A stretch of 64,000 nucleotides of DNA from Phenylobacterium deserti (GTDB lineage: Bacteria > Pseudomonadota > Alphaproteobacteria > Caulobacterales > Caulobacteraceae), in assembly GCF_003254705.1 (NCBI RefSeq), contig NZ_QFYR01000003.1, positions 310,001 to 374,000 of the forward strand. Direction: 5' to 3'. The notes below the pieces were generated by a model, which had not been told where the DNA came from, searched no databases, and was given only the letters and a program-made list of their open reading frames with translations. Below, piece after piece: positions 55,656 to 58,796 of the stretch. Positions within the stretch are counted from its first letter, which is position 1, and every line of letters starts with the position of its first letter. The position numbers were made by a program, and so were the translations under genes.

Positions 55656-57269
55656 ATGACGCTGAAGAAGCGCCTGCAGGTCGGTGCGTCCGTCCTGATC
55701 AGTTTCGCGGTCCTGGCACAGGCCGCCGTGGCGGCTCCCATGGCGCTGTCCCCTGATGACGCCCAGCGGTACGCCGCGGCGTTCGAAGCCTCGGATCGCG
55801 GCGACTTCATCGACGCGCAGATGCAGGCGGTGGAGATTCAGGACAAGTCGTTGCTGGGCTACCTCAGCTTCAGTCAGCTGATGCACCCCACGAATCACAA
55901 GGCCAGCTTCGACGAGCTTGCGGGCTGGATGGCGAAGTTCCGGGACCTGCCGCTGGCAGAACGCATCTTCACGCTTGCCGCCAAGCGAAAGCCGGCTGAC
56001 GCCCAGCTGCCCGCACCCGCGCTCTCGACCGCCGAGCTCGCGAAAGCCGCTCCGGCGAGCGCTGCAAAGGCGTCGGATCGTGGCCGCCAGGCGCGAGAGG
56101 CTTACTACTCGGGCGACGCGAAAAAGGCGCTGCAGCTTGCCTCCAGCTCGGGTGAGCGCTGGATCGCCGGCCTCGCCGCCTACCGGCTGAAATCCTACGA
56201 CAAGGCGCTCGACTTCTTCGGGCAAATCTCCCGCGACGGCGACCAAGACGACTGGATGCGCTCGGCGGGGGCTTACTGGGCCGCACGCGCCGCGACGGCC
56301 CTGGGAGATTCCAGTCGCGCCACCCTCGAGCTCAAGGTGGCGGCCAAGGCGGCCGACACCTTCTACGGCATGATCGCCGCCCGTCAGCTCCAGCTGCAGG
56401 GACCGACGCTGGCCTCCGCGACGGCTGGCGAAGCGAAGCTCTTCAAGGCGGCCTACAGCGCCCCTTCGGACGAGACGAGCCGCTTCATCAAGAGCGAACC
56501 GCGCGCCCACCGCGCCGCCGCCCTCGCCCAGCTTGGGCGGCTGCAGGACGCTGGCCAGGAAATCCGCGCCGGGATGGCCCTGGCTCGCACCGACGCGGAG
56601 CGCAGCCGTTGGGAGGCGTTCGCAGGCGAGATCGGCGCGCCGCTGAGCGACGGACCCACAGCCGTGCGGCGTCGCAGCTCGTCCGAGGACTACCCGATCC
56701 CGGCGCTCGAGCCGAAGTCGGGCTTCACGCTCGACAAGGCGCTGGTCTACGCGATCGTTCGGCAGGAAAGCCGCTTCAACCCCATGGCGGTGTCTCCCGT
56801 GGGCGCGGTCGGCCTGATGCAGTTGATGCCGGAAGCGGCCGCCCGGGCCGCCGGCGACGACAAGCTCAAGGCGGACATGAGCCCGCTGTTCGATCCCGCG
56901 TTCAATCTGCGGGTCGGCCAGGATTATGTGACGTGGCTGATGGAGCGGGGCGTCGGCTACGACCTGCTGCGCACGGTGGCGGCCTACAACGGTGGTCCGG
57001 GCACGATCCAGAAGACCGCCCAGATGCTCGGCTCCGATGGAAACGACACGCTGCTTCTCATCGAAAGCCTGCCGTCGCTCGAGACGCGCAACTACGTCGA
57101 GAAGGTCGTTGCGGCCTATTGGACCTACAAGAAGATGTTCGGCGACGAGACGCGCACCTTGGACGCTCTCGCTGGCGGCGCCGGCGTCATCGACGCTCGT
57201 CTTGATCTAAAGCAGGCGACGAGCCCGGGCACCAAGTACTCGGCGCAAGGCGGCCACCTCGGTCTTTGA
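55656..57269 (+). CDS. soluble lytic transglycosylase
   Basis: Cleaves peptidoglycan glycan strands to form 1,6-anhydro ends. The 537-residue protein has a signal peptide (VLISFAVLAQAAVA), a helical superhelical N-terminal part of about 340 residues like Slt70, and a C-terminal SLT domain: ALVYAIVRQESRFNPMAVSPVGAVGLMQLMPEAA with the catalytic Glu in RQESRF, then YVTWLMERGVGYDLLRTVAAYNGGPG. Its 3' end overlaps the convergent gene 57207-57641 by 63 bases. Confidence 0.93.
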   Translation: MTLKKRLQVGASVLISFAVLAQAAVAAPMALSPDDAQRYAAAFEASDRGDFIDAQMQAVEIQDKSLLGYLSFSQLMHPTNHKASFDELAGWMAKFRDLPLAERIFTLAAKRKPADAQLPAPALSTAELAKAAPASAAKASDRGRQAREAYYSGDAKKALQLASSSGERWIAGLAAYRLKSYDKALDFFGQISRDGDQDDWMRSAGAYWAARAATALGDSSRATLELKVAAKAADTFYGMIAARQLQLQGPTLASATAGEAKLFKAAYSAPSDETSRFIKSEPRAHRAAALAQLGRLQDAGQEIRAGMALARTDAERSRWEAFAGEIGAPLSDGPTAVRRRSSSEDYPIPALEPKSGFTLDKALVYAIVRQESRFNPMAVSPVGAVGLMQLMPEAAARAAGDDKLKADMSPLFDPAFNLRVGQDYVTWLMERGVGYDLLRTVAAYNGGPGTIQKTAQMLGSDGNDTLLLIESLPSLETRNYVEKVVAAYWTYKKMFGDETRTLDALAGGAGVIDARLDLKQATSPGTKYSAQGGHLGL

Positions 57270-57641
57270 GGCTGCATCGGCGCGCCCGATCAGCAGGGCC
57301 TCGGGTCCACGCCTGAACAGACGCCCGCCCAGGCCTAGAAGCACAGCTTCGCGCCCGCCCTCGCGCAGGTGATCAGACAGCCGCTCCGCCCATCCCTCAG
57401 TGGGGCGGAACTCCGGGGGCGCGACGAGCAGCAGCTCCGATTTCGCCCTGCCGATAGCTGACGGTAGGTCAGCCGCGAGCTCGGCTCCCGTCTCGTCGCA
57501 CACCGCCTCCAGGAGCGCTTTTGGTCCCTTACAAGCGATCAGCACCTCGCGCACGAGCCCCTCGACGGCCGCTGTCGTAAGCACGGCCAGCAAGCCCGCC
57601 AAGCGTTCCGAATCTCCAGGCGACACGATCACCGTCAGCAT
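57207..57641 (-). CDS. small hypothetical protein with a GT2-like Rossmann pattern
   Basis: A 144-residue protein whose N-terminus (MLTVIVSPGDSERLAGLLAVLTTAAVEGLVREVLIACKGP) and later LPSAIGRAKSELLLVAPPEF recall the nucleotide-binding half of family 2 glycosyltransferases. It is too short for the full domain and shows no DxD motif. It could be a degenerate or regulatory relative. The ATG at 57641 starts the beta-strand; upstream frame extension is poor. It is divergent from the radical SAM gene and shares with it a gap that contains a LexA box. Confidence 0.6.
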   Translation of the reverse strand: MLTVIVSPGDSERLAGLLAVLTTAAVEGLVREVLIACKGPKALLEAVCDETGAELAADLPSAIGRAKSELLLVAPPEFRPTEGWAERLSDHLREGGREAVLLGLGGRLFRRGPEALLIGRADAASKTEVAALRRVLGARARRLL

Positions 57642-57680: not shown

Positions 57681-57695
57681 GTTCTTGTTTCGTTC
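57681..57695. promoter_or_regulatory. LexA (SOS) box in front of the radical SAM gene
   Basis: An exact GTTC-N7-GTTC (spacer TTGTTTC) 25-39 bases upstream of the GTG of the radical SAM gene and 40-54 bases from the divergent gene start. This position would overlap a promoter, as expected for LexA repression. It is one of two such exact boxes noticed in intergenic DNA of the window, the other being at ssb. Confidence 0.65.
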
Positions 57696-57719
57696 TCCGC
57701 GCAGCGCTAACCTCCACGC

Positions 57720-58796
57720 GTGACCACCTTCACGCAACAGATCCGGGGCCGAGGCGCCCGCTCGAACGCCAGCGGGCGCTACGAGGCCCAGGTGCGCGAA
57801 GCGTTCGAGGATGGCTGGACGGTCGAGGACCCGCAGCCTTTGCAGATCCGCACCGAGGTCGCTCCCGAAAAGGCGAAGGTGATCATCACCCGCAACGACA
57901 GCCCGGACGTCGGCTTCAGCGCTTCAATCAACCCGTACCGTGGATGTGAACACGGCTGCACCTACTGCTACGCCAGGCCGGCTCACGCTTACATGGGCCT
58001 GTCGCCCGGACTGGATTTCGAGACCAAGCTCTTCTTCAAGCCTGACGCCGACGTGCTGCTCGAACGGGAGCTCTCCAATCCTCGATACAGGCCCGAGATC
58101 ATCCACGTCGGCGGCAACACCGATCCTTACCAGCCACAGGAGCGCAACCTGCGGGTCACCCGCTCGATCATCGAGGTGCTGAGCCGCTTCAACCAGCCGT
58201 TCTCGATCATCACCAAGTCCGCGCTGATCCTGCGCGACCTGGATCTCTTGGCGTCCATGGCGGACCGGAACCTGGTGCGGGTCGCCATCTCCATCACCTC
58301 GACCGATCGCAAGCTGTCCCGTTCCATGGAGCCGCGGGCGGCCACCCCCGAGAAGCGGTTCGACGCCGTGCGCCGCCTCACCGAAGCGGGCGTGCCCACC
58401 ATGGTGATGTTCGCGCCGGTGATTCCAGGGCTCAACGATCACGAACTTGAAGCGGTGCTGGAGCGGTCCGCGGACGCCGGAGCCCGCGGCGCAGGCTATG
58501 TGGCCCTGCGGCTGCCGCTGGAGATCAAGGACCTCTTCCGGGAGTGGCTGGAAACGGATCATCCGGACCGCGCCGGCCGCGTCATGTCGCTGGTGCGTCA
58601 GATGCGAGGCGGCCGCGAGTACGACGCGCAATGGGGCTCACGCATGGTGGGCCAAGGTCCGATCGCAGACCTGTTGTCCAAACGGTTCGCCGCCGCCCGC
58701 CGCCGGTACGGGCTGGCGGACAGGCAGGAGCCGTTGGACATGACCCTGTTCCAGGTTCCTCCGAAAGCGGGCGACCAGATCGATCTGTTCGGTTAG
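57720..58796 (+). CDS. PA0069-family radical SAM protein (COG1533, photolyase-like)
   Basis: A 358-residue radical SAM enzyme of the SplB-related COG1533 group. The cluster motif is in [15 protein letters not shown] (CxxxCxxC), followed by [19 protein letters not shown] and [24 protein letters not shown] as in this family. Its reaction is unknown; relatives are annotated DNA repair photolyase on the basis of spore photoproduct lyase. The start is a GTG. A LexA box immediately upstream suggests DNA-damage induction. Its stop overlaps that of the convergent LLM gene by 4 bases. Confidence 0.88.

Follow-up and report, generated by a model that had tools for sequence, protein, structure and literature searches.

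Radical SAM genes under the control of LexA, the repressor of the SOS response, have been described in several bacterial groups, and this control is an already known principle. In the part of PMC3323433 considered here, LexA control of splB (COG1533) was predicted in Alpha- and Betaproteobacteria and was not observed in Gammaproteobacteria, and in the corresponding part of PMC8565304 COG1533 'SplB' is a predicted SOS gene of Bacteroidetes, with the remark that this was shown in several species. Those parts of both papers name splB or COG1533 and not PA0069, and they present no promoter architecture. In addition, excerpts of other works mention a radical SAM protein in the SOS networks of Gram-positive bacteria and Balneolaeota (PMC7739468), SplB-like radical SAM proteins linked to ImuB-C operons (PMC3765255), and vnz_31145 of Streptomyces venezuelae, which stands as 'Radical SAM protein' in a LexA regulon table with fold-change values and a site (PMC9380542). 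Here we describe a further case, a PA0069-family radical SAM gene and the LexA box in front of it, located in a stretch of 64,000 nucleotides of Phenylobacterium deserti (contig NZ_QFYR01000003.1, positions 310,001 to 374,000; hereafter the window). It resembles vnz_31145, likened by its table label, in being a radical SAM gene with a LexA site, but the latter belongs to another phylum with another LexA motif.

PA0069 and Rv2578c themselves reportedly belong to the LexA regulons published for P. aeruginosa and M. tuberculosis; a search of the available literature pairing either name with LexA gave no match. Closer to Phenylobacterium, the part of PMC12700426 considered here gives GTTCN7GTTC as the LexA motif of C. 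crescentus and GTTCttgttatGTTC as the box of two SOS genes of this species, a form that was also found before the radical SAM gene in relatives. A term search of the main texts of the C. crescentus SOS papers PMC1839093, PMC12700426, PMC13384398, PMC6120978 and PMC4211646, as far as these were available, did not retrieve 'radical SAM'. What is new here is the survey, the change of motif between classes, the promoter reading and the absence of the catalytic cysteine, the last two being called new without a literature search dedicated to them.

The window pattern scan located an exact LexA box, GTTCTTGTTTCGTTC, at positions 57681-57695 of the + strand, with a gap of 24 bases to the GTG start (57720) of the radical SAM gene (57720-58796, + strand, 358 aa). 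The sequence-only reading had described this arrangement and named the family, and both were borne out: the product matches NF033668 (rSAM_PA0069) with 521.7 bits against a curated cut-off of 360, and it also matches Pfam Radical_SAM (PF04055). Its cluster motif CxxxCxxC (C76, C80, C83) was present in 222/222 orthologues, the residue counts in this work referring to those 222 of 226 loci whose protein fell inside the length filter (203/207 alphaproteobacterial and 19/19 others). Among named relatives, the nearest proteins belong to Phenylobacterium, Caulobacter and Brevundimonas, with a top identity of 73%. We estimate at about 0.87 the probability that the box is a genuine LexA operator, which would make this gene an SOS gene.

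The evidence that carries this interpretation is the conservation of the box upstream of orthologues, a check that the sequence-only reading had proposed. In the searches, the grouping 'family' is taken to be the Caulobacteraceae and 'class' the Alphaproteobacteria. The gene was found in 47/60 family genomes, and in 45 of these 47 the box lies within 200 nt upstream; matches over the cut-off were obtained in 107/193 genomes in the class search and in 48/60 in the order search, a second, C-terminal piece over the cut-off in genome G049 not being counted as a gene. After removal of 5 duplicates from the 194 alphaproteobacterial loci examined, in 170 of the 189 unique loci the box lay no more than 300 nt ahead of codon 9. 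Each of 20 dinucleotide shuffles gave 0-2 such loci, and the reversed pattern gave 3. With 18 loci added from the phylum search, and leaving out the over-cut-off matches of G409, G426, G394, G423, G414 and G404, the set grew to 207 loci, where the box was present in 191 (either orientation, -350 to +40). In an overlapping set of species with named records it was present in 73/80, including Caulobacter, Brevundimonas, Bradyrhizobium, Rhizobium, Agrobacterium and Bartonella.

Outside the Alphaproteobacteria the motif changes. The LexA protein of E. coli and of many of its relatives binds CTGT-N8-ACAG, and this site was found within 100 nt of codon 9 in 13 of the 19 loci that represent other classes of this phylum, while GTTC-N7-GTTC was found in none of the 19. 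This set leaves out the over-cut-off matches of G351, G422 and G393, as well as G374, which was excluded for its split gene arrangement and which lacks a LexA site within 300 nt of its complete copy. The presence of the other LexA motif in these 13 loci indicates that the control persisted while the specificity of LexA changed. This differs from the Gammaproteobacteria of PMC3323433, in the part considered here, although the classes of our 19 loci are not identified by name.

The same genome contains one lexA and one full recA, with boxes 57 and 135 nt upstream of the respective matched regions. We inspected 26 further sites of this genome, 11 matching a narrow pattern and 15 picked by eye, which represent a selection and not a regulon. 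One of them is the window site, 6 precede members of a paralogous family for which Pfam gave no match, and 8 precede lexA or repair-type genes: lexA again, YifB/ComM, RadC, rSAM_link_UDG (over the cut-off), an MmcB-like gene (Pfam), and ImuA-, RecN- and DnaE-like genes, these last three with NCBIfam scores below the curated cut-offs and with the RecN and DnaE open reading frames cut by the locus edge. Taken together, conservation, the change of motif and the boxes before lexA, recA and repair genes strongly support the SOS control proposed by the sequence-only reading, as far as comparison of sequences can predict it.

The box also appears to be part of a promoter. Among the 45 Caulobacteraceae boxes, the spacer starts with TTG in 44, an in-frame start codon lies at offset 38-40 from the box start in 42, and TAnnnT lies at offset 26-28 in 35, compared with a mean of 1.3 and a maximum of 6 in 200 shuffles. 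In the window, the spacer contains the -35-like hexamer TTGTTT (57685-57690), followed after 17 bases by a -10 element, TAACCT (57708-57713, + strand), predicted by consensus, and the predicted transcription start falls at or beside the GTG. According to this consensus reading, the predicted promoter of the radical SAM gene overlaps the LexA operator. As the -35 element lies inside the operator, a LexA bound to GTTCTTGTTTCGTTC would cover this hexamer and exclude RNA polymerase; RecA on single-stranded DNA would then trigger LexA cleavage and the radical SAM gene would be transcribed, probably as a leaderless mRNA with its 5' end at or beside the GTG. We infer LexA binding, induction by damage and the leaderless start.

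Several observations weigh against LexA control of this gene or narrow its extent. The exact box was missing in 16 of the 207 alphaproteobacterial loci; among the misses, several carry a one-mismatch box or a box slightly further upstream, and one had just 42 nt of upstream sequence. The E. coli-type site was missing in 6 of the 19 loci of other classes. Genome-wide, the bare pattern GTTC-N7-GTTC is near background, with 101 sites against 88 for the reversed pattern, and 11 of the 26 inspected sites adjoin no recognised SOS gene (L001, L005, L010, L247, L248, L250, L254, L255, L256, L259 and L260). The promoter geometry is enriched but weaker in the other Alphaproteobacteria (63/141; shuffle mean 7.9, maximum 15). 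Furthermore, an action of the enzyme on DNA is argued from its regulation and its fold only.

The resemblance of the protein to spore photoproduct lyase (SPL) raises the question of whether it could be a true SPL serving vegetative cells. In a fold search, SPL was the top structural match (PDB 4fhc and mutants, 14-15% identity in the alignment), and a profile comparison gave a probability of 95.1%, with the same cluster motif; it is from these two approaches that the link comes. However, the catalytic C140 of SPL (4fhc) aligns in the profile comparison with position 132, where the orthologues carry Thr, Gly, Ala or other residues, with Cys in 0/222. Directly behind the last cluster cysteine, where SPL has Y98, 134/222 orthologues have Phe and 88/222 have Tyr, the window protein being among the latter. 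At E 0.001 the window protein did not match PF20903 (SPL), no match was obtained elsewhere in its genome, and the family profile, compared with the sequences of solved structures, retrieved SkfB weakly and stretches of NifB but no SPL entry. A true SPL is improbable, and the SPL reaction is an unlikely answer for the PA0069-family enzyme. The photolyase likeness put forward in the sequence-only reading stands for the fold and fails for the reaction: since the catalytic cysteine is missing, 'photolyase-like' describes structure. The PA0069-family enzyme might use a 5'-deoxyadenosyl radical on damaged DNA, with a hydrogen-return step that differs from that of SPL, a weak suggestion from regulation and fold.

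Another aspect to consider is to which gene the box belongs, since it is situated between divergent genes, with 39 bases separating it from the ATG of a small gene on the - strand (57207-57641). This gene, for which control by the same box had been suggested, does exist; it encodes 144 aa from its ATG, and its frame is also open from an upstream TTG at 57737. Its product has no Pfam or NCBIfam match at E 0.001, but it is a shortened and diverged relative of family-2 glycosyltransferases: in BLASTP it shares 33/103 identical columns (E 3e-9) with the neighbour in locus L062, a PF00535 protein of the type that is often the divergent neighbour of the radical SAM gene. Neighbours of this glycosyltransferase type, sorted by single-linkage BLAST clusters and therefore roughly grouped, occur in 83/207 alphaproteobacterial loci, which would favour a box serving mainly the divergent gene, or both genes equally. 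However, the box is present in 80 of these 83 loci and in 111 of the 124 without such a neighbour, and because its frequency is independent of the divergent neighbour, the box goes with the radical SAM gene. The window's small gene is moreover shortened and matches no family, and the aligned promoter elements face the radical SAM gene in a comparison that covered that direction only. That the box acts mainly on the small gene, or on both equally, is in our opinion quite improbable. As the main reason for the box, the divergent gene was rejected on the same independence of box frequency; control of the small gene as suggested is not supported as such a reason, although it may occur in addition.

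The motif could also be a strong promoter element, or the site of another regulator, without any action of LexA. The TTG of the spacer is in fact better explained as part of a -35 element than as a LexA contact. Nevertheless, both GTTC half-sites are maintained at fixed spacing within 300 nt of 186/207 genes, which is more than a -35 element requires, and an E. coli-type LexA site occupies the same place in other classes, so we give this explanation very little weight. Finally, conservation was used as an independent test because the counts of the bare pattern are not significant alone: the window contains 3 sites versus 1.63 expected, with at least 3 in 24/100 shuffles, and a genome with about 100 matches, close to the count of the reversed pattern, would accommodate a chance match. 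The orthologous positions (170/189 against 0-2 in shuffled sequences) contradict chance and leave it a negligible probability. The narrower form GTTCTNNTTNNGTTC, picked by eye after the list of genome sites had been seen, has 11 sites in the genome, against none for the reversed form.

Some of the other boxes in the genome deserve mention in their own right. The paralogous family comprises six proteins of about 200 aa (L002, L003, L004, L007, L009 and L011, with the box at 1501-1515 in each), and a strong GTTC-N7-GTTC abuts the start codon in 6/6. No Pfam match was found in the four members scanned, and the box abuts the start in 12/26 loci of this and related genomes, these six included. They may form an SOS gene family specific to this lineage. 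A second radical SAM gene (L253:1201-2414; G000:C3:1770093) matches TIGR03916 rSAM_link_UDG with 551 bits and has GTTCTCCGTCTGTTC 14 bases before its open reading frame. Like the PA0069 gene, it is a radical SAM gene with GTTC-N7-GTTC, but it belongs to a different family, and it shows weak C-terminal helix-hairpin-helix matches below the Pfam cut-off. A further GTTC-N7-GTTC precedes a putatively MraZ-like open reading frame (L259:531-1201; G000:C6:76259), with which a possible division cluster begins.

Regarding the surroundings of the radical SAM gene in the window, a lytic transglycosylase gene and a family-4 uracil-DNA glycosylase gene lie on its 5' side on the same strand, and on its 3' side, on the opposite strand, there are genes for a luciferase-like monooxygenase and for an RlmD-like methyltransferase, with scores that do not reach the curated cut-offs. 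In 68/207 alphaproteobacterial loci (for example L210 and L213) the radical SAM gene has a co-directional RNase HII-like gene behind it, and a DNA methylase gene, here labelled CcrM-type (Pfam N6_N4_Mtase), is also present on that side in 38 loci; one member of each group was checked with Pfam, and the short flanks make these counts low estimates. Wherever the RNase HII-like and radical SAM genes form an operon, RNase HII would fall under LexA.

The radical SAM gene is split in a Brevundimonas genome (G049, L243:961-17104), in a family genome (G008, L244:12565-16833) and in the other-class genome G374 (L245:1367-2917). In all of these an N-terminal fragment stops at the cluster-cysteine codons and a complete copy lies downstream, and in G049 the C-terminal piece is found about 14 kb further on, adjoining a large serine recombinase. 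The arrangement resembles an island that integrates into the radical SAM gene and supplies a new copy in its place. In G374 and G008, inspection by eye of the short extra stretches revealed no recombinase.

With these results, scattered statements in the literature become a strong comparative result, and an uncharacterised radical enzyme becomes a priority candidate for a function in DNA damage. The promoter reading offers a precise test in Caulobacteraceae. It is possible, though we propose it only tentatively, that PA0069 enzymes represent a near-core SOS function of proteobacteria, a light-free repair or processing of DNA lesions by a 5'-deoxyadenosyl radical without the cysteine donor of SPL. 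If so, radical SAM enzymes would have a second DNA repair reaction, so far unrecognised, that has stayed under LexA despite the change in the LexA binding motif.
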